In this document: one piece after another, positions 44,439-55,593 of the stretch | Layout of the letters: each line of letters starts with the position of its first letter | Numbering within the stretch: the first letter of the stretch is position 1 | Origin: Caulobacter sp. 17J80-11 | GTDB lineage: Bacteria; Pseudomonadota; Alphaproteobacteria; Caulobacterales; Caulobacteraceae | Length of the DNA: 64,000 bases | Reading direction: 5' to 3' | Assembly: GCF_014349105.1 (NCBI RefSeq) | Contig: NZ_JACSJI010000019.1 | Coordinates: 1-64,000, forward strand | Made by a program: the position numbers and the translations under genes | The notes under the pieces: generated by a model | Database searches by the model: none | Told to the model about the DNA's origin: nothing | What the model saw: the letters and a program-made list of their open reading frames with translations, nothing else

Positions 44439-44588
44439 GTGAAGCCCGAACGCGACGCCATCAAGCGCGCCGGCCCGGTCGACAAGTCCGGCCAGCCCCG
44501 GCCGCTCCCGCCGCCCATGATGATCTGGGTGATCGTGGCGCTGGGCCTGCTCATGCTGGCCGCCGTCGCCTGGATGGTGTTCGGCTGA
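44439..44588 (+). CDS. Small single-pass membrane protein
   Basis: A GTG at 44439 opens a 49-residue frame: a basic polar N-terminus (KPERDAIKRAGPVDKSGQPR) and one membrane helix (MIWVIVALGLLMLAAVAWMV) ending FG-stop. The upstream GGAG is 11 bases from the GTG, somewhat far. The arrangement is that of a small inner-membrane protein with its N-terminus inside. It follows parB by 59 bases. I do not recognise the family. Confidence 0.55.
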   Translation: MKPERDAIKRAGPVDKSGQPRPLPPPMMIWVIVALGLLMLAAVAWMVFG

Positions 44589-44660: not shown

Positions 44661-44840
44661 ATGGACATGGAAGACAAGGTTCGCGACGCGATCCTCTACG
44701 ACCTCACCCGCCAGGCCGAACTGCCCGACGCCCGCCTGAAGGTCGAAAAACGCCCCGAAGGCCACCTCGTGATCAGCGGCGACGTCGACCTGGAGGAGCT
44801 CGCCATGGCCGTGGTCGGCGCGGTGGCCGGGGGGCCGTGA
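44661..44840 (+). CDS. Small soluble hypothetical protein
   Basis: The ATG at 44661 follows GAGGAG (ideal spacing) and gives 59 residues with a helix-strand pattern: MDMEDKVRDAILYDLTRQAE, then LPDARLKVEKRPEGHLVISG and a final helix. There are no Cys residues or membrane segments. It is preceded by the second copy of the repeated leader and ends 18 bases from the stop of the convergent ATPase gene. I do not recognise it. Confidence 0.6.
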   Translation: MDMEDKVRDAILYDLTRQAELPDARLKVEKRPEGHLVISGDVDLEELAMAVVGAVAGGP

Positions 44841-44857
44841 GGGGGCCCGAGGGCCCG

Positions 44858-47329
44858 CTATCCCGCTGTTTTTTCTTTGGTCTTTTTCTTGAAGGAGAAT
44901 GTGCTGCCACCGCACAGGCAGAGCATGTGCTCCTTGCTGCCTCGGTGGGGGCTCACTTCGAGTAGGTCGCCGCAGAGCTGGCAGGTGAACTCCCGAACAA
45001 GCGCTTCGAAGGAATCGACGAGAGGGAGGAAGTCGTTTTTGTGGAAATTGGACCACGCGTTAAAGTGAATAGCTGGGTTTACCTGCCACTGTTCGATCGA
45101 AGTAGCCGCCGCAGCTTCTGTAAGTGCAGCTGTGCGTTGGCGAATAGCATCCGCACGTACCGTATCCCCCCAGCTCTCTGCAGCTGCTAGCGACTCCAGA
45201 AGCAGCTTTTTCATTTGCCCAATAGCCGGTGCCAAAAGGTCGCCTAGGTCGTGGCGTCCGTCCGCGCGGTATTCGACGCGCACCCGTAGCGACTGGCAGT
45301 ACTCACCCGCTAGATGCTCAAGGTAGTGGCGCAACAAGGCCGCAGCGCCGCGGACATCGTCCAACGTCGCGTACTCACGGATTTCGGCCCAGATGTCTCC
45401 CCCTGTCCATGCAGAAGGGCCCTCGTCGACCGTCCATTTCCGGAAATGGACCGCCTGCTTCGGTTCAACGAGTCCGGCCGTCCCCATATGCTTCAGCCAC
45501 GTCTTATCGTGCGTCGTCAGTACGAACTGTGTGTTCGGAAACTCCGCTTTCAGCATTCTGGAAACTTCCCGGCGATGTCCGGCGTCGACAGACATGAGCA
45601 CGTCGTCCAGGACCGCGAACGTGAAGGCATCGCCGAGTAAATGCCGCATGAGGGCTAGGTAGAGACATAGCCCCATGCTGTCCTGGTGGCCTTCGCTGTG
45701 ATAAGCACCCGGCGGAAAGAAACCTCGCGTGTAAAAGTCGACATTGAAGCCAAGTTTCCCCATCGAGGGCATAAGCTTGGCTTCAAATGTGCTTTCGTCG
45801 TCAGCGTTTATGTGCCGATACAGTTCGGCAAAATGTCCCTCTACGTCTTGGTAGACCTTCTCAAGAGCGAGCCTCGACGCTTCTGCGTATACATCGAGCA
45901 CCTTTCGCGCCCGCTGCGCGCGCGCAGCAGCCGATCGCGCAGCGGCGTTGTCGGACCGCAACGCTTCGAAGCGCAGGTCCGCAACTGTTAGGAAGTCGCG
46001 GGCGGCCTCCTGTTCTGAGGGCTCGGGTAAGACGGCGATTGCGTGGTCCAGTCGGTCAAATACCTCGTTGAGGCCGTCGTCTCGAAGAATGGCCTCCAGT
46101 GCAGCAAGCGTCGCGTCGAGCGGAACGAACGCTGCGAGCTGGTCGCTCAGGGCCTTAAGGCCAGCGCCGCGATTGGTGAGCGCCTTCAGCGCTGCGTCGT
46201 CCAACAGGCGCTTGGTAAGGGGAAATACCGTTCGTAAAGCCTGTGTCTCCGCTTCCAGGGCCTCAATTAGCGGAGCAATCAGGGTCTCTGCAGCCGTTCT
46301 GAGACGGTGGACCTCAGCTAGCTTGGCTCGTTTAGCCTCAATAATAGCGGCAAAGACCTCTGGAGCTTTCGGGGTCTCGCAAGCCGGACAAGCTTCGCCA
46401 TCATACAAGTCAAGCGCGGTTCGCAAAAAATCGTCGCGCACAACCGCGTCGAGCAGGCTGGCGTCAGCTTGGAGTCCCGTCACCGCTTGACTGGCCGCTG
46501 CTACCTTGGCGACAAATTCCTCGGCCCCTAGCCGTTTTGCTACAGACCTAGCAGCCTCGACGTCAGCTTTTGCAGCCGCCTTCACGAGCCTGTGGCCCGC
46601 TTCGCCTTCAGGAGCGCTAGCCAGTCCATCTTTCAGAGAGACTTCAGCGCTCAGCACGGTAAGCGGTTCAAGGCCGAGGACCGCTCGAAAGTGGTTCACT
46701 ACCGTAAGAACTTCCGTCGAAGACAGTGTCGCTAGTCCGAGCGCGCGAAGAAGGGCGTTCTTCGAGGCTTCTTTCACGCGATCTGCGTTTGCCGACGAAG
46801 TTTGTTCCGCATTCGCAATACGCTGGAACTTCGTCCGCAGGTCTTCAAGCTGATCCAGCTTTAATAAGGCTTGGACGTCCTTCGATCGCTTCCCAGGCTC
46901 CGCGAGCACGTAGCGGATAATCTCGCGACGAGAGAGTGCAATTTCGGGATGCTCTTCGACGCTCTTGAAGAGCGCTCTCGCTTCCTTTGTATCAGGGATG
47001 ACACTTAATGTTTTCGGGCTCTTAACAGTCCTACGAATTGTAAATGTCTTCTTGTTCGCAGGTGTCGACACCACCGCTTCGACGTACGCTTTGTCCGGCG
47101 AGAACCGGCTGTCTACGTGAGGCGCATGGTCCTTTATTGACAAGTCGCCTCGTCCTTGACCGGTCAGGCGCGAGATTGTCCCGGTCAGAACAAACTCTAG
47201 GGCGTCGACGATTCCACTTTTGCCGGTCCCGTTGGGACCACAGACGGCGAAATTCTTACCCTTCAGATCCAGCTGAAGGCGCCGGACGCCTCGGAACTCA
47301 TGAATTGTCAAACGCTGAATGTGGATCAC
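44858..47329 (-). CDS. SMC/RecF-like AAA ATPase with Cys motifs, probably acquired
   Basis: The 823-residue protein has Walker A GPNGTGKSGIVDALEF (31-46), an ABC-type signature region SEGHQDSMGLCLYLALM (545-561), Walker B FAVLDDVLMSVD (571-582, DD in place of DE) and an H-loop VLTTHD (603-608). The middle is helical with a CPAC pair (314-317), placed like a zinc hook, and the C-terminus has a ribbon (CQLC 783-786, CLC 804-806). This is the RecF/Rad50-type plan of many defence ATPases. Its base composition is less GC-rich than its neighbours and it opposes the local gene direction. The GTG start overlaps the upstream gene (GTGA). Exact function is not known. Confidence 0.85.
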   Translation of the reverse strand: MIHIQRLTIHEFRGVRRLQLDLKGKNFAVCGPNGTGKSGIVDALEFVLTGTISRLTGQGRGDLSIKDHAPHVDSRFSPDKAYVEAVVSTPANKKTFTIRRTVKSPKTLSVIPDTKEARALFKSVEEHPEIALSRREIIRYVLAEPGKRSKDVQALLKLDQLEDLRTKFQRIANAEQTSSANADRVKEASKNALLRALGLATLSSTEVLTVVNHFRAVLGLEPLTVLSAEVSLKDGLASAPEGEAGHRLVKAAAKADVEAARSVAKRLGAEEFVAKVAAASQAVTGLQADASLLDAVVRDDFLRTALDLYDGEACPACETPKAPEVFAAIIEAKRAKLAEVHRLRTAAETLIAPLIEALEAETQALRTVFPLTKRLLDDAALKALTNRGAGLKALSDQLAAFVPLDATLAALEAILRDDGLNEVFDRLDHAIAVLPEPSEQEAARDFLTVADLRFEALRSDNAAARSAAARAQRARKVLDVYAEASRLALEKVYQDVEGHFAELYRHINADDESTFEAKLMPSMGKLGFNVDFYTRGFFPPGAYHSEGHQDSMGLCLYLALMRHLLGDAFTFAVLDDVLMSVDAGHRREVSRMLKAEFPNTQFVLTTHDKTWLKHMGTAGLVEPKQAVHFRKWTVDEGPSAWTGGDIWAEIREYATLDDVRGAAALLRHYLEHLAGEYCQSLRVRVEYRADGRHDLGDLLAPAIGQMKKLLLESLAAAESWGDTVRADAIRQRTAALTEAAAATSIEQWQVNPAIHFNAWSNFHKNDFLPLVDSFEALVREFTCQLCGDLLEVSPHRGSKEHMLCLCGGSTFSFKKKTKEKTAG

Positions 47330-47589
47330 GGGGTATCGCTTTCAAACAGCGCCGACCGGATAGCCGCTTCTGATCGTTCCTCATTATCGATCAGCGCATC
47401 GCGCAAGCGGGCCGCAACCTCAGCAAGGTCTGCTTCCTGAGCGAGCGTATCGATAAAATCGGCAAGTACGCGGCCCACAAGTGAGCCGCCGCCCGCAACG
47501 GGACCGTTGTCCTCATCGTTGAGGGTATCCATGCACGTCGCCCCAAGCTGTGGAGGCAGACCGTACAACCAGGCGATGTCACCCGTCAT
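47326..47589 (-). CDS. Small partner protein of the SMC-like ATPase
   Basis: This 87-residue acidic protein (MTGDIAWLYGLPPQLGATCM, then a helical LADFIDTLAQEADLAEVAAR and ERSEAAIRSALFESDTP) overlaps the ATPase by four bases and shares its composition. Two-gene units of a small helical protein and an SMC-like ATPase occur in several defence families (for example the middle component of three-component ABC systems), but no third gene is present. The ATG at 47589 has no obvious ribosome site; an internal ATG at 47532 is an alternative. Unrecognised. Confidence 0.7.
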   Translation of the reverse strand: MTGDIAWLYGLPPQLGATCMDTLNDEDNGPVAGGGSLVGRVLADFIDTLAQEADLAEVAARLRDALIDNEERSEAAIRSALFESDTP

Positions 47590-47760
47590 CTGTTACAGCG
47601 CGCACCAAGACCCCCAATTGACACCCCCGCCTAACGGCGTTCTCCTCTAGTCGCCGGCGTAGGGGGCTCGCCGGTGCGGCTCGTCGAGCCGGCTGGTGTT
47701 CGTCGCCGGTAGTGGCCCGGCGGTCGGCTCCCGCGTTCGCGTCTGCGTCCGGGGGGGAGC
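47590..47760. other. Divergent promoter region
   Basis: This 171-base gap separates the minus-strand ATPase unit from the plus-strand giant genes, so it should contain both promoters. I see a GC-rich stretch and a GGGGGGGAG ribosome site just before the ATG at 47761, but no clear promoter pair or direct repeats that would mark an insertion. Confidence 0.4.
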
Positions 47761-50700
47761 ATGGCCGACGAACACGACGCCCGAGAACCGACTTCGGTCT
47801 CCGAAGCCCTGCGCCTGTTGCGGCTGAACCGCAGGCGTGTGCTGACCATCCTGGCCGCCGGCGCGGCGACCTCGGCGGCGGCGCAGAACCGCACGCCCTC
47901 GCGCACGCCCCCGGGCGGCGGCGGGCGGCGGCCGTCTCCCATTCCCGGCGGGCGCGGGCCGCAGGTCACCATCGACCTCAGCAATCTCGGCCGCCGGCGC
48001 GACGACAGGCCCAAGCTGCCCGACCGGATGTTCGTGGTCCGCCCCGACGACATGGTCGTGCTGGAGGTGGAGCCGGTCGGCCTGAAGCGCTCGGCCGGGC
48101 GGCTGGTGCGCTCCGGCGGCGACGCGCTGCTGATCGTCGACCACCCGGCCCAGGCCATAGCCGAGCAGGCCTACTGGAAGACCTCCGGCCAGGCCTCCAA
48201 CACCGCGGTCGACAAGACCGGCGCGCCCTACGCCTCCCCCGGCGACGAGACCCCGCTCCCGACCACGCCCGCCCCCTCGCGCCTGGCCGGGCGCTCGCGC
48301 GTGGTGGTGCGCATGCCGACGGGGCAGATCGACCTGCCCTGCACGCTGGAGGGGATACTGGAGGCCTGCCGGACCTGGCCGCTGGTGCTGGATCCGGCCG
48401 CCCGCCCGGCCCCGCCGGAGGCGGTGCGCGCCGGCCGCTTCACCGTGCCGCTGGACGCGGCCACCGCCGTGCTGGCGGGCTCGCTGCCGGTGGGGGCGCG
48501 CGACAAGCTCAAGCCCGCGCTGGAGACCGCCAGCACCAAAGTGGCCGCGGGCATTCTGGCGGGCGCGCGCGGCGGCAAGCCGCTGGACGACGCGGCGATC
48601 GACGCCCTGATCGCGCGCGAGGTCGACGCCGCCACCAAGACCTCCGGCGGGACCGGCGTGCGGGCAAAGCTGACGCCGGAGCAGACCGCCTCGGTACGCG
48701 GGCTGGTCGAGGCCTCGGCCATGACCACGGTCGGCGACCAGGCCTTCGCCTTCATCGACCAGAAGCCGCACAAGCCGGCCGAGAAGACCACCCAGATCGA
48801 GCTGCCCTGGCGGCTGGTGCAGTCGCCCCTGCCGGGCGCGGGCTTCGACCACCAGACCCTGCCGGTGAACAGGGGCGGGCGCATCGAGCTGTGGCACTCG
48901 CGCCTGGGCGCGCGGCGCGACAGCCCCCTGCCCGGCCAGCATGTCGTCGACGACCGGGCGGCCCAGCCGGTGCGCGCCCTGTGGTCGCCCGACTACGACA
49001 AGCCGCTGGACGACATCAATTCGGTCTGGGCCCTGACCGGCCAGGACCGCCGGATGCTGGTCCTCAACATGGCCGACTACACGGCCAAGACGCTGGACGG
49101 GAAGAAGTTCACCCCCCGCCCGTCGCGCGCCAAGCGGCTGATGCTGTCGGCGCTGGGCGGCTGGCTGGACGCGGAGGGCGCCTGGCAGGTCCGGCCCAAG
49201 GGCAGCGACATCGAGGCCTGGAAGCACAAGACCGCCCAGGCGCGCGACTACTACGTGCGGGTGGTCTACGCCGGCTTCCTGTTCCCGACCGGCCACGCCG
49301 CCTCCCTGGTCAAGGAGACCGAGCGGGTCTTCGAGACCCAGAGCGACGGCGGGCGGGTGGCGATGCTGCGCCAGCGCAGCTTCATCATCGTGCGCGAGAA
49401 GACCCGCACCTATCCGGGGGCCAACCAGGCGTTCGGCGGCTACGACCTGCCGTTCAAGCAGATCGACGTGCTGACCGAGGTCACCCCCGACCTGAACCAG
49501 CCGGGCAAGCCGACGGGCGCCTCGCCCAACGCGCTGGACGTCAGCTTCTACGGCAGCCCCGACCTGGTGCGTCAGGCCTTCTGGCCGACCACGGCCGACG
49601 GCGACATGGCCTTCAAGATCTCGGCGGTGGACGCGGCCGGGCGGCGGATCGGCTTCGACCTGCCGATGATGTTCGTCTCCGACCAGCTGAACGCCGAGGC
49701 GGCCAAGGTCGCGGCGATCGCCGGCTTCTACAACGCGGGAAACCAGCTGACCCGCCGCAAGCGCACCCTGGGCGGCCAGACCGTGCAGATGGCGCCGGGC
49801 GAGGCCGGGGCCGAGGACGTGCACATGCCGGCCTCCAGCGTCACCTTCCGCGGCGCGGGGGCGACCTCCACCGAGGGCATGTCGGCGACCGCGCCGCTGT
49901 TCTATCCGGGCCTGGAAGGGGCCGAGGTGAAGCTGCGGGCGGTCGAGGCCATGACCGGCGCGGTCGGGGCGCGCGCGGTCAGCTTCAACCCGACCTATCT
50001 GCGCGAACAGTTCGGCGGGTCGAACGCCGGCCAGGTGTTCCTGGACCTGGTGGCCAAGGCGGGCGCGGGCTCCAGCGAGCAGCTGGGCGGTCTGATCTCG
50101 CCCAACTTCGCGCCCAGCGCCCTGTCGCGGAAATACGGCGCGGTCGGCGGCAAGAGCGATCCCGGTAGCGGCGGCGCCGACGCGGTCGGCTCGGCCGCCC
50201 AGTTCCTGAAGGGCGAGTTCAACCCGGCCGACTTCATCCCCGACGACGTCATGCTGCTGGGCGCCTTCCCGCTCAGCAAGGTGCTGAAGCTGGTGGCCCT
50301 GGCGGCGGAGGTGACCGGCACGGAGATCCCGCGCCTGTCGCAGGTGCAGTTCCCCGACCGAATCGAAGCCAAGTTCGAGTTCGAGCAGAAGGACCTCGAC
50401 CCGCCCGCGCCGATCGACGAGATCTTCAAGCCGATCAAGGGCAAGAACGTCTTCAGCCTGAGCTCCAGCTCCAAGATCTGGCTGAACGGCAAGCCGGCCG
50501 AGACGCGGGTCGACGGGGCGCTGACCCACTTCCGGATCAACCTGTTCGGCTGCCTGATCGTCCACTTCGTCAACCTGGCCTTCTCGGCCGAGCCGGGCCG
50601 CAAGCCCAGGGTCGACGTGGACCTCGACCCGGATCACGGCGTCGAGTTCGGCGGGCCGCTCAGCTTCGTCAACAAGCTGCGCGAGATGATCCCCTCGGAC

Positions 50701-51363
50701 GGCTTCGCCGATCCGGTCGGCCTGTCGGTGACCCCGGCCGGCATCAACGCCGGCTACAGCCTGACCCTGCCGCCGATCGCCATCGGCGTTCTGACCCTGC
50801 AGAACGTGATGATCGGGGCGGCCTTCAACCTGCCGTTCATGGGCGGCAAGCCCAACGCCCGCTTCAACTTCGCCGAGCGGGAGAGCCCGTTCAACCTGAC
50901 CGTCTCGCTGTTCGGCGGCGGCGGCTTCGTGGCGCTGGGGGTGGACACCGGCGGCGTGCGCGAGGTCGAGGCGGCGCTGGAGTTCGGGGCGCAGATCTCG
51001 GTCGACCTGGGCGTCGCCTCGGGCGGGGTCTACGTCAAGGGCGGCTTCTACTTCCACTGGGTGGACGAGAGCGGCAAGGAGCGGGTCGAGCTCGAGGCCT
51101 ATGTCGAGATGGGCGGGCACCTGTCGGTGCTGGGCCTGATCACCGTGTCGCTGACCTTCCACCTGGGCCTTTGCTACGAGAAGGCCGGCGACGAGGCGCG
51201 GCTGTTCGGCCAGGCCACCCTGACGGTCGAGATCGAGATCCTGTTCTTCTCCATCTCCGTCGACGTGACGGTCGAGAAGCAGTTCGCCGGCTCCAAGGAC
51301 CCGCTGATCACCGACCTGACCACCGCGGACGACTACGCCCGCTATTGCGCCGCCTTCGCGTAA
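47761..51363 (+). CDS. Giant secreted protein of unknown function (1200 residues)
   Basis: The 1200-residue product has a Tat-like signal: RLNRRRVLTILAAGAATSAA (residues 21-40), an Arg-Arg pair, hydrophobic core and AAAQ cleavage-like end, then a Pro/Arg/Gly-rich linker. The middle is mixed, with an extended beta-like pattern. Residues about 990-1180 are striking: alternating hydrophobic strands with Gly turns (GYSLTLPPIAIGVLTLQNV; NLTVSLFGGGGFVALGVDTG; GGHLSVLGLITVSLTFHLGL), like a beta-barrel or beta-helix. I recognise no named domain. Base composition fits the host. It is followed after 12 bases by the 1405-residue gene. Confidence 0.85.
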   Translation: MADEHDAREPTSVSEALRLLRLNRRRVLTILAAGAATSAAAQNRTPSRTPPGGGGRRPSPIPGGRGPQVTIDLSNLGRRRDDRPKLPDRMFVVRPDDMVVLEVEPVGLKRSAGRLVRSGGDALLIVDHPAQAIAEQAYWKTSGQASNTAVDKTGAPYASPGDETPLPTTPAPSRLAGRSRVVVRMPTGQIDLPCTLEGILEACRTWPLVLDPAARPAPPEAVRAGRFTVPLDAATAVLAGSLPVGARDKLKPALETASTKVAAGILAGARGGKPLDDAAIDALIAREVDAATKTSGGTGVRAKLTPEQTASVRGLVEASAMTTVGDQAFAFIDQKPHKPAEKTTQIELPWRLVQSPLPGAGFDHQTLPVNRGGRIELWHSRLGARRDSPLPGQHVVDDRAAQPVRALWSPDYDKPLDDINSVWALTGQDRRMLVLNMADYTAKTLDGKKFTPRPSRAKRLMLSALGGWLDAEGAWQVRPKGSDIEAWKHKTAQARDYYVRVVYAGFLFPTGHAASLVKETERVFETQSDGGRVAMLRQRSFIIVREKTRTYPGANQAFGGYDLPFKQIDVLTEVTPDLNQPGKPTGASPNALDVSFYGSPDLVRQAFWPTTADGDMAFKISAVDAAGRRIGFDLPMMFVSDQLNAEAAKVAAIAGFYNAGNQLTRRKRTLGGQTVQMAPGEAGAEDVHMPASSVTFRGAGATSTEGMSATAPLFYPGLEGAEVKLRAVEAMTGAVGARAVSFNPTYLREQFGGSNAGQVFLDLVAKAGAGSSEQLGGLISPNFAPSALSRKYGAVGGKSDPGSGGADAVGSAAQFLKGEFNPADFIPDDVMLLGAFPLSKVLKLVALAAEVTGTEIPRLSQVQFPDRIEAKFEFEQKDLDPPAPIDEIFKPIKGKNVFSLSSSSKIWLNGKPAETRVDGALTHFRINLFGCLIVHFVNLAFSAEPGRKPRVDVDLDPDHGVEFGGPLSFVNKLREMIPSDGFADPVGLSVTPAGINAGYSLTLPPIAIGVLTLQNVMIGAAFNLPFMGGKPNARFNFAERESPFNLTVSLFGGGGFVALGVDTGGVREVEAALEFGAQISVDLGVASGGVYVKGGFYFHWVDESGKERVELEAYVEMGGHLSVLGLITVSLTFHLGLCYEKAGDEARLFGQATLTVEIEILFFSISVDVTVEKQFAGSKDPLITDLTTADDYARYCAAFA

Positions 51364-51375
51364 GGAGCCTAGACG

Positions 51376-54300
51376 ATGGTCACCTACTCCTCCGAAGCGG
51401 TCTGGACGGTCCTGCCGAACGGGCTGGGCGAGGCGAAGCAGCTGAAGGCCTCGATCCTGGTGTCGCCCCGCCTGTGGTCGGACGCGAGCGACCCGTCGCT
51501 GGGCGGCCACGACGGCTGGAAGGTCTGGCGAAACTGGGCGACCGCCATGGGCGGGGCCGGCTTCCTGCTGAAGGCCGAGGGCCTGTCGGCGCCGGTGAAG
51601 GCCACGGTCGTCTCCAAGACCGACAAGGCGGTGTTCGAGGCGCTGTTCGGCGATACGACGCCGGTGAACCCCTTCGTCTTCTCCGACTGGTCGAAGAAGA
51701 AGGTGCTGAGCTATCCGCTGGCCGATCTGGCCACGGCGCTGGACGAGACCTACGGCGGCTGGGCGCTCAACGCGGGCGAGCTGCCCAAGCGCGGCGACTT
51801 CGGCGCCCAGTTCAGCCGGGACTTCAATCCCAAGCGCCGTACCCGGCCCGAGGACGTGCTGCGCATGGTGGCCGAGGGCCAGGGCTTCGGCCGCACGCTC
51901 GGCCAGAACGGACAGGGCGCCTCGACCGCCCAGCTGGCCCAGGCGCTGGACCTGCTGGCCACCTACCACCGGCCGCTGAACAAGCAGGAGCTGGCGGTCT
52001 GGACGCCGCCGCCGGGCGACGAGGTCCACGAGCCGGCCCGCTATCGCAAGGGCTCGCGCCCGCCCCTGCCGAGCAAGGCGGACCTGGCCCGCAAGGTCGA
52101 CTTCCACCAGATCGCCGCCGCCCTGATCCAGTATCCGGATCTGGCGCGGGCCTGCGGCTTCGTCATCGACGTCGAGATCGACCCCGCCGCCTTGGCCGCC
52201 GCCGGCGCGAACCTGAAGCTGAGCGTGGCCGAGGTGGTGCTGGACGGCTTCGCGCCGCCGGCGCCGATCAGCCCGGTGTCCATGACCCGCAACACCGACA
52301 CCGGCTTCTTCCTGCAGGGCGCGCCCTTGCCGGCCGGCCAGGTCTCGCCCTTCGTCGACCGCTGGCTGCGGCTGGACGCGTCCGGCCCCTACCGGCTGGT
52401 GCAGATGGACGTCGACGGCGCGGGGCTGAAGTTCAGCCAGTTCGCGGAATCGATGCTGCGCGACGTGCCGGCCGACTTCGACGACGACATCCTGCCCGGC
52501 GATCCGCAGGCCGAGCCGCAGGCGGGCGCGCCGTCGATCCGCACCGGCGGCCTGACCCTGGCGCATCGCCGGCGGGACCTGTCGCTGCAGGCCGCCTTCG
52601 TGCAGGCCAAGACCCTGAACGTGGCCGCCCTGGCCCACGCCGCGGCGCCGTCCGATCCGTCCAAGCCGCCGGCGACCGTCTTCGCCGGCGACGCCGTGCG
52701 CGGCTACCGGATCGACGTGCTGGACGAGACCAAGGGCCAGTGGCGCAGCCTGTGCGCCCGCCACGGCGCCTACACCTTCACCAAGGGCGGTCACGACCCC
52801 ATCCCGTTCGGTTCTCCTGACGCGCCGGCGCCGGGCAAGCCGTCCGACGAGGGCATGGTGCGCGCGGCGGCCGGCTCGTCCACCGACGGCTCCAATCCCA
52901 ACCTGGTGAAGGTGCACGAGGGCCTGTTCAGCTGGCGCGGCTGGAGCCTGTGCGCGCCCGAGCCCGGCAAGTGGGTGAAGTCGGACAACAGCTTCTCGGG
53001 CGCCGCCGACCCGCTGCCCTCGGGCCTGCCGCTGGACGTCGCCTTCGCCGCCCAGCCGGGCACCCTGCCCTCGCTGCGGTTCGGGCGCAGCTACCGGGTG
53101 CGCGTGCGCCTGGTCGACCTGGCCGGCAACTCGCTGGCCGCCGACGCGGCCGCGCCGGCCGGGGCGGTGTCGGACCCGCAGACCTACCTGCGCTACGAGC
53201 CGGTCGAGCCGCCGAGCCTGGCCCTCATCGGAGAGAAGACCTCCGAACTGCAGGTCCCCGGCGACGGCGAGTCCATGGGCCGCCTGGCGATCCGCACGAT
53301 GGACGCAGGCCTGGCCGAGCCCAAGCGCGCCCGCCGCCATGTCGTGCCGCCGCGCGTCGGGGCCCGCTTCGCCGAGCAGCACGGCGTGCTGGACGGCCCG
53401 GACGGGCGCATCGACGCCGGCAAGTGGTCGACATTGATCAACCAGGACTCGCCGCTGATCGACCTGGAGGTCGACGGCCAGCGCTGGCCCTGCGCGCGCG
53501 AGCGGTTCGTCCTGCCCTTCCTGCCCGATCCGATGGCGGTGGCGGTGGCCGTCCGCGTGCTGGGCGTCGACGGGATCGACCCGAAGGTCGTCCACCACGT
53601 GCCGCTGTACGGCGACACCGTGCCGGTCACCGCCGCGGCGGCCAAGGACTGGCCTAAGGCCAAACCGTTCGAGATCGAGCTGGTCGACGGCGGGCCGGGC
53701 GCCGGTTTCACCATCGAGGGGACTGGCCGGCGGGTGTTCCGCGTGCGCCTGATCAAGGCCCAGCGCGCGCGCCTGCGCGTCTCCTGCGTGCTGCCGGCCA
53801 GCGCCAAGTCGATGATGAAGTGGCGCGCCCGGGTGGCCTCGGCCGGCCTCCCCGCCGCCCAGCAGCACGCCCTGGACGCCCTGGTGGAGGGCGGCGGCCA
53901 CTGGATGTTGACGCCCTGGCGAACGGTCGAGCTGGTGCACGCCGTGCAGCGGCCGCTGGTCAAGCCGGTCATCCAGAACCTCGACACCGCCCAGCGCGGC
54001 TTCGGCGAGCTGGACGCGCGGCTGTTCTTCGACACGCCGCTGGACGCCGAGAGCACCGGCCGGCTGGACCTCTACGGCGAGTGGAACGAGGTCGAGGACA
54101 CGCCCGGCGAGCCCCGTCCCAAGGGCAAGCGGGCGACCGCCGACGCCTGGGGCCGCACCATCACCCGCAAGGAAACCCCGCAGACCTTCCGGGCCGAGGC
54201 GCGCAAGGCCCCGCCGGAGCACAAGTTCGCCGACACCCGCTATCGCCGGGTGAGCTACCGGCTGGACGCCACCACCCGTCACCGCGAGTTCATGCCCGCC

Positions 54301-55593
54301 GGCCTGCGCGACAAGCCGGACGAGCTGAAGGTCAGCTCCGAACCGAAGCAGGTCTGGGTGCCCAACGCCGCGCCGCCGGCGCCGCCCTCGGTGCTGTACG
54401 TCGTGCCGACCTTCGGCTGGAGCCGCACCCAGTCGGGCGGCGAAAAGCGGTCGATGCGTTTCGGCGGCGGCCTGCGGGTCTATCTGGACCGGCCGTGGTT
54501 CAGCTCCGGCTACGGCGAGATGCTGGGGGTGGTGCTGGCGACCGAGGGCACGCCGTCCGGCGAGCTGAACGGACGGCTGAAGTCGCTGGTGACCCAGTGG
54601 GGCCGCGACCCGCTGTGGCCGCAGGCGCCGCTGACCCAGTTCGCACCGGCGAAGTCGGCCTTCCCGCTGGCCCGCTACCAGGCCCCGATCGCCTTCGACG
54701 GCCTGCCCGAGCTGCCGGCCGAGGAGGGCTCGGCCCTGCCGCCGGGGCCGTTCCGGCAGGGGCTGTCGCACCGGGCGCTGGAGGGCTCGTCGCTGAAGCT
54801 GGACGTGGCCCCGCACGCGGTCGGCTGGGACGACGAGCGCAAGCTCTGGTACGCCGACATCGTCGTGAACCTGCCGTCCACGGCCTATCTGCCGTTCATC
54901 CGCCTGGCGCTGGGCCGGTATCATCCGGTGTCGGTCGACGGGGCGCACCTGTCCGACATCATGCTGGCCGAGTTCCAGCAGCTCACCCCCGACCGGCTGG
55001 CGGTGGTCACCGAGGCGCTGGGCGCGCCCAAGACCGTGCCGCCGACCCAGGCCTTCAAGGTGCAGGTCTATGGCGTGCTGCCCAAGCCGAAGGAGCACTC
55101 CGCCTGGCAGGAGGCCGGCAAGATCGACGTGCGCGTGCAGGTGCTGCCGCCGGACGGCTGCCCGGACCTGGACTGGGTCGACTGGGTGATGCCGGAGGGC
55201 TCCAAGTCGCTGGCCCCCTCCATCCCCGGCGGGGTCGGCCTGCCACTCAGCGGCGGTTCCGACGGCGTGAAGCTGGACGGCGCCGCCGTGCTGGGCGCGC
55301 TGGTCTCCGGCGCCGCGGCCCAGTCGGCCCGCGCTCAGGCCGACAAGCTGGCGGCCCAAGGCCGGTTCGACGACATCGTCGGCAACCCGGCGCTGATCGC
55401 CGCCCTGATCCCGCCGCTGATCGAGGAGGTGACGGTCGCCGCGCCCTTGCCCCAGCCGGGCGTGCGCCGGCGGCTCCTGATCACCGAGTCCGAGGTCTAT
55501 CGCACCACGCCGGACGACCCGCCGACGATCTCGGCGCCGAAATCCTCGGAGATCGCCGAGCGGATCGTGTTCGTGGAGACGGTGGAGATCTAG
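51376..55593 (+). CDS. Giant protein of unknown function (1405 residues), partner of the upstream gene
   Basis: The 1405-residue product begins directly with a folded-looking segment (TYSSEAVWTVLPNGLGEAKQ; LKASILVSPRLWSD) and has no signal peptide. Several regions look like beta-sandwich repeats (GRSYRVRVRLVDLAGNSLAA near residue 570; RLDLYGEWNEVED). There are no visible catalytic motifs, Walker boxes or transmembrane helices. The ATG at 51376 follows AAGGAGCC. It is cotranscribed with the first giant. Together they could form an envelope or extracellular assembly, but nothing here proves it. Long frames on the opposite strand are shadows. Confidence 0.85.
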   Translation: MVTYSSEAVWTVLPNGLGEAKQLKASILVSPRLWSDASDPSLGGHDGWKVWRNWATAMGGAGFLLKAEGLSAPVKATVVSKTDKAVFEALFGDTTPVNPFVFSDWSKKKVLSYPLADLATALDETYGGWALNAGELPKRGDFGAQFSRDFNPKRRTRPEDVLRMVAEGQGFGRTLGQNGQGASTAQLAQALDLLATYHRPLNKQELAVWTPPPGDEVHEPARYRKGSRPPLPSKADLARKVDFHQIAAALIQYPDLARACGFVIDVEIDPAALAAAGANLKLSVAEVVLDGFAPPAPISPVSMTRNTDTGFFLQGAPLPAGQVSPFVDRWLRLDASGPYRLVQMDVDGAGLKFSQFAESMLRDVPADFDDDILPGDPQAEPQAGAPSIRTGGLTLAHRRRDLSLQAAFVQAKTLNVAALAHAAAPSDPSKPPATVFAGDAVRGYRIDVLDETKGQWRSLCARHGAYTFTKGGHDPIPFGSPDAPAPGKPSDEGMVRAAAGSSTDGSNPNLVKVHEGLFSWRGWSLCAPEPGKWVKSDNSFSGAADPLPSGLPLDVAFAAQPGTLPSLRFGRSYRVRVRLVDLAGNSLAADAAAPAGAVSDPQTYLRYEPVEPPSLALIGEKTSELQVPGDGESMGRLAIRTMDAGLAEPKRARRHVVPPRVGARFAEQHGVLDGPDGRIDAGKWSTLINQDSPLIDLEVDGQRWPCARERFVLPFLPDPMAVAVAVRVLGVDGIDPKVVHHVPLYGDTVPVTAAAAKDWPKAKPFEIELVDGGPGAGFTIEGTGRRVFRVRLIKAQRARLRVSCVLPASAKSMMKWRARVASAGLPAAQQHALDALVEGGGHWMLTPWRTVELVHAVQRPLVKPVIQNLDTAQRGFGELDARLFFDTPLDAESTGRLDLYGEWNEVEDTPGEPRPKGKRATADAWGRTITRKETPQTFRAEARKAPPEHKFADTRYRRVSYRLDATTRHREFMPAGLRDKPDELKVSSEPKQVWVPNAAPPAPPSVLYVVPTFGWSRTQSGGEKRSMRFGGGLRVYLDRPWFSSGYGEMLGVVLATEGTPSGELNGRLKSLVTQWGRDPLWPQAPLTQFAPAKSAFPLARYQAPIAFDGLPELPAEEGSALPPGPFRQGLSHRALEGSSLKLDVAPHAVGWDDERKLWYADIVVNLPSTAYLPFIRLALGRYHPVSVDGAHLSDIMLAEFQQLTPDRLAVVTEALGAPKTVPPTQAFKVQVYGVLPKPKEHSAWQEAGKIDVRVQVLPPDGCPDLDWVDWVMPEGSKSLAPSIPGGVGLPLSGGSDGVKLDGAAVLGALVSGAAAQSARAQADKLAAQGRFDDIVGNPALIAALIPPLIEEVTVAAPLPQPGVRRRLLITESEVYRTTPDDPPTISAPKSSEIAERIVFVETVEI

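Follow-up and report, generated by a model that had tools for sequence, protein, structure and literature searches.

The 64,000-nt stretch of Caulobacter sp. 17J80-11 DNA analyzed here (the window) carries a pair of minus-strand genes that share the nucleotides GTGA, namely a gene for an 823-aa ATPase with a GTG start codon (44858-47329) and a small ORF of 87 aa (47326-47589). The true start of the small gene is probably an internal ATG at 47532, because most relatives are 57-71 aa long and begin there, which would give a small acidic helical protein of 68 aa (47326-47532, minus strand) whose gene overlaps the ATPase start by 4 nt. Since parA, parB, and the downstream genes lie on the plus strand and the GC content of the pair (0.55-0.61, ~58%) falls below that on both sides (0.67-0.77, mostly 70-75%), the opposed direction, GTGA overlap, and lower GC content described in the earlier note were all confirmed. 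The position of the insert behind parB also held, with the correction that two tiny ORFs (~44439-44588 and ~44661-44840) intervene. Neither a sigma-70-like promoter nor an Rfam element was detected at the insert site, and the window contains no tRNA genes.

Comparison with one other genome of the genus (G003) placed the cargo edges at 44855/44856 and 47610/47611. ParB is 99% identical in that genome and the 1200-aa gene on the far side of the insert 96% identical, and between these flanks G003 holds a different low-GC insert of 1.75 kb with a single 532-aa gene. The parB-downstream site is therefore a slot with exchangeable cargo, and the segment at 44856-47610 is established as acquired cargo of this variable slot. 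The product of the G003 slot gene (L110:2572-4170, G003:C315) matched nothing in Pfam or PADLOC; by eye, its N-terminus (GWDYVVDW...CYAQVKTHW) resembles DUF4365/Mrr-type PD-(D/E)XK nucleases. Beyond the insert, two giant genes without a Pfam match (1200 and 1405 aa) stand side by side at 47761-55593, and among 31 genomes searched the 1200-aa gene was found at full length in the same genus only, with partial matches in one further genome.

The distribution of the ATPase was sporadic. Within the family, full-length relatives occurred in 3 of 198 other genomes, and a wider draw from the phylum yielded relatives in 2 of 397 other genomes, one of them divergent; the relatives within genome contigs were recovered with an alignment query, a single-protein query of the same contigs having given none. 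Across plasmids and genomes, relatives were found in Alphaproteobacteria, Bacteroidota, Actinomycetota, Chloroflexi, Myxococcota, Verrucomicrobia, Nitrospirota, Methanophagales, and haloarchaea. Phage records contained no relative of the ATPase, and the IMG/VR contigs contained one at full length (L078). Copies in Methylobacterium bullatum (L021) and Devosia sp. (L022) were broken into several reading frames and have apparently decayed. The earlier note had regarded presence at this site in all relatives with host-like composition, or a housekeeping role for the ATPase, as evidence against a defence unit; the pair was missing from the G003 slot and from most relatives, and no housekeeping assignment emerged. 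Such an identity was rejected, as all NCBIfam equivalogs scored below cut-off.

The small ORF lay directly upstream of the ATPase gene in every one of the 37 intact sequences, among them that of the window, with a 4-nt overlap at the junction in 29, a longer overlap in 7, and a short gap in 1. Full-length, always-paired relatives across many phyla indicate that the pairing is not due to chance, and the two-gene unit can be regarded as established. Pairwise identities of the small proteins and of the ATPases were correlated (Spearman 0.58, for pairs that are not independent). The small proteins gave no convincing Pfam call and matched no PADLOC model, LmuC included. One 928-aa relative (L007:286-3072, G193) carries an apparent copy of the small protein at its N-terminus, which an Ala/Pro-rich linker connects with the ATPase-HEPN portion. 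Further relatives of L007 and of another divergent homologue, L153, were sought and none was found, so the fusion is a single sequence; judged by eye, it suggests that the small protein touches the ATPase directly.

This arrangement raises the question of whether the pair is a toxin-antitoxin stabilization module, in which the small protein would be the antitoxin and the ATPase-HEPN protein the toxin, serving plasmid addiction instead of phage sensing. The antitoxin-first gene order with translational coupling, the mostly acidic nature of the small proteins (pI 4-5), and the presence of copies on many plasmids are in keeping with such a module. A large hook ATPase, however, far exceeds the needs of known small toxins, several copies adjoin defence systems, and the small protein matched no known antitoxin or DNA-binding family, which makes this explanation unlikely.

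The gene neighbourhoods of the relatives revealed no third gene: among 349 neighbouring ORFs at 36 loci, the widest family was present in 4 loci. Relatives were often plasmid-borne or adjoined defence genes, as seen at individual loci. The neighbours included AbiE and an abortive-infection protein, Shango-like TerB/ATPase/helicase genes, DarT, RES, and TIR proteins, DUF499/DUF1156 genes, and a type IIG restriction-modification system, PD-Lambda-5, and UzuA; some relatives sit among ordinary plasmid genes. On the Halorhabdus tiamatea plasmid pHTIA (L031:6805-9469), the pair lies between pglX and pglZ in a BREX-5 locus. The earlier proposal of a candidate defence unit is partly supported: the exchanged cargo, sporadic occurrence, low GC content, and defence or plasmid neighbourhoods of the relatives speak for a laterally acquired unit of defence type.

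The AlphaFold model of the ATPase (mean pLDDT 80) predicted a Rad50/SMC head, short coiled coils, a CPxC hook at 314, a C-terminal helical domain (643-780), and a four-Cys ribbon. In this predicted model, the head matched the Rad50 structure 4ncj_A (Z 24.0, rmsd 4.3 A, 286 aligned), and the protein matched Pfam SMC_N at 3.6e-19. The hallmarks of SMC/Rad50-type proteins were all found, including an H-loop and a coiled coil with a hook, and their motifs are conserved. On the minus strand, Walker A (GPNGTGKS, residues 31-38) maps to 47216-47239, the CPAC hook at the coiled-coil apex (C314-C317) to 46379-46390, the ABC signature (SEGHQD, residues 545-550) to 45680-45697, Walker B (FAVLDD), ending in D575 and D576, to 45602-45619, and the C-terminal zinc ribbon (C783-x2-C786 ... 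C804-x-C806) to 44912-44983. The Rad50-like ATPase, CPAC pair, Cys ribbon, and DD-type Walker B recognized in the earlier note are thus all present, and the hook Cys, ribbon Cys, and Walker B Asp residues are invariant in the 37 sequences. The search of defence-family models that the same note had proposed returned mad3 (4.6e-20) and LmuB (1.5e-15) as the best PADLOC models for the head, both as partial matches; the two were also among the best PADLOC matches of divergent members, and LmuB matched residues 1-642 of a haloarchaeal relative (L036) at 6.4e-32.

A Rad50-type head with a hook would also suit a system that attacks incoming DNA or plasmids directly, in the manner of Rad50 or Wadjet. 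The HEPN-like bundle and the ribbon would in that case bind nucleic acid, and plasmid residence might then reflect inter-plasmid competition. Against this very unlikely alternative, no nuclease partner gene recurred across the 36 neighbourhoods, and Pfam recognized no DNase domain in the ATPase.

The C-terminal helical domain (residues 643-780; 44990-45403, minus strand) contains two motifs that resemble those of HEPN RNases. Motif 1, R667-x3-E671 (RHYLE; 45317-45331), and motif 2, N751-x3-H755 (NPAIH; 45065-45079), have R667, E671, and H755 constant in 37/37 sequences and N751 in 36/37, and R667, E671, and H755 fit the R-x3-E ... H pattern of the RloC/PrrC catalytic triad. In RloC of G. kaustophilus, this triad consists of R692-x3-E696 and H737, every residue of which is required for activity (PMC2610378). 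In profile comparisons with RloC, motif 1 scored 24.4 (shuffles 8.7, sd 1.6; 0/150 reached it), and motifs 1 and 2 scored 20.1 and 18.0 against DUF4145, in the same order (shuffles ~8.5; 0/150 each), the shuffles being an optimistic null where segments are helical. DUF4145, whose GNxAVH aligns with motif 2, is a recognized HEPN family (PMC3710099). Against RloC alone, motif 2 was not significant in hhalign and the resemblance is by pattern only; hhalign probabilities for comparisons of the C-terminal domain were low (13-17%). The divergent homologues L153, L005, L007, and L006 align with R-x3-E followed by IGNKGSHD, VENFGSHF, NFLSHW, and NAFAHS, respectively. The domain thus displays the HEPN-superfamily pattern, a helical bundle in which N-x3-H is accompanied by another conserved polar motif; the R that normally precedes N-x3-H is replaced in the ATPase family, as it is in the RloC sequences fetched.

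Because a structure search with the whole model covered only the head, the C-terminal domain was folded alone (pLDDT 82), with the loop carrying H755 poorly modelled. The best VIA match of the isolated domain was the HEPN protein 2hsb (Z 5.7, 105 aligned, 3.2 A), which is at noise level for helical bundles, and Foldseek against the PDB gave nothing at E<=0.001. No RloC or PrrC structure was among the structure matches listed, which excludes nothing, and Pfam made no convincing call for the domain. Taken together, the motifs, profiles, divergent homologues, and 2hsb match make a HEPN RNase domain at the ATPase C-terminus likely, and the conservation of its signature is established. The earlier note saw neither a nuclease nor a third effector; no third gene recurs, as noted above, but the note overlooked the RNase signature of HEPN type within the ATPase itself.

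These residues also bear on the possibility that the pair is a derivative of Lamassu/ABC-3C, consisting of an LmuB-like ATPase and a tiny LmuC-like part, with the effector located elsewhere or lost and the C-terminal domain purely structural. The recurrence of LmuB and mad3 among the best PADLOC matches agrees with such an origin, and Lamassu itself includes a small middle component, LmuC (PMC10586767). This reading is nonetheless quite unlikely, given that an LmuA-like gene recurs in none of the 36 loci, that R, E, and H are strictly kept in the built-in domain, and that the small proteins lack a PADLOC match.

We consider it probable that the pair is a mobile two-gene defence cassette acting as a compact abortive-infection switch, with the ATPase as the sensor, a built-in HEPN RNase, and the small partner as the regulator. 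The short coiled coils and the zinc hook would allow the ATPase to dimerize. Rad50 and Lamassu LmuB sense DNA ends or replication intermediates, and by analogy the head and hook may sense foreign DNA, probably in these same forms. An ATP-driven rearrangement of the heads could then release the protein's own HEPN RNase (R667, E671, N751, H755). PrrC and RloC are anticodon nucleases that cleave tRNA, and the released RNase would similarly cut RNA of the host or the phage, with tRNA as the most likely target, so that infection would be aborted. The zinc ribbon probably aids the grip on nucleic acid, and the translationally coupled acidic protein may bind the ATPase and either restrain it or link sensing to activation. 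A bolder reading, which we hold tentatively as possible, is that the pair represents an uncatalogued immune family found in both bacteria and archaea. Its DNA sensor, of Lamassu type, would bear its own HEPN RNase under an obligate gate of 60-70 aa, and the family would bridge the gap from Lamassu to RloC. If the proposed sensor-effector switch is right, DNA sensing and RNA killing would be combined in one polypeptide with a dedicated mini-regulator, and SMC-type Lamassu and the anticodon nucleases, which have been studied apart, would become linked. A family now annotated as "AAA family ATPase plus hypothetical protein" would gain a definable two-gene signature, and the parB-downstream slot of the genus would be a swap site for accessory genes.

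A literature search returned no description of the pair, although an earlier mention may exist. The pair shares with RloC/PrrC an N-terminal ABC ATPase followed by a putative C-terminal HEPN RNase with R-x3-E and, as is common around the catalytic H in the RloC-type sequences fetched, N-x3-H; with RloC it also shares the zinc hook and a Walker B ending in DD, which many RloC-type sequences have (IDDPxSSLD). An HMM built from 23 RloC-type sequences matched the window ATPase at E 0.0089. Unlike RloC/PrrC, the ATPase did not match PF13166 (AAA_13) at E<=1 (its own genome was unmatched at 1e-20) and possesses an extra C-terminal zinc ribbon and a dedicated small partner, and its R-to-H spacing is 88 residues versus 45 in G. 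kaustophilus RloC. Lamassu has a similar SMC/Rad50-like head, a CPxC hook with short coiled coils, and a small protein component, whereas here a separate LmuA is missing from the 36 loci, the putative effector is fused to the ATPase, and the small protein of ~60-70 aa has no LmuC match. Of the PADLOC models, that of the MADS ATPase mad3 fits the head best, but it covers 374 aa and lacks the putative C-terminal effector, and the loci here have no recurrent third gene. The APECO1_4465 and ERFG_01251 types likewise combine an ABC ATPase with a C-terminal HEPN domain, some of them in mobile islands (PMC3710099); the pair may be set apart from them by its obligate small partner. Judged from sequence, with no PF13166 match and no LmuA, the pair belongs to neither RloC nor Lamassu and is a putative variant of ABC-HEPN immunity.
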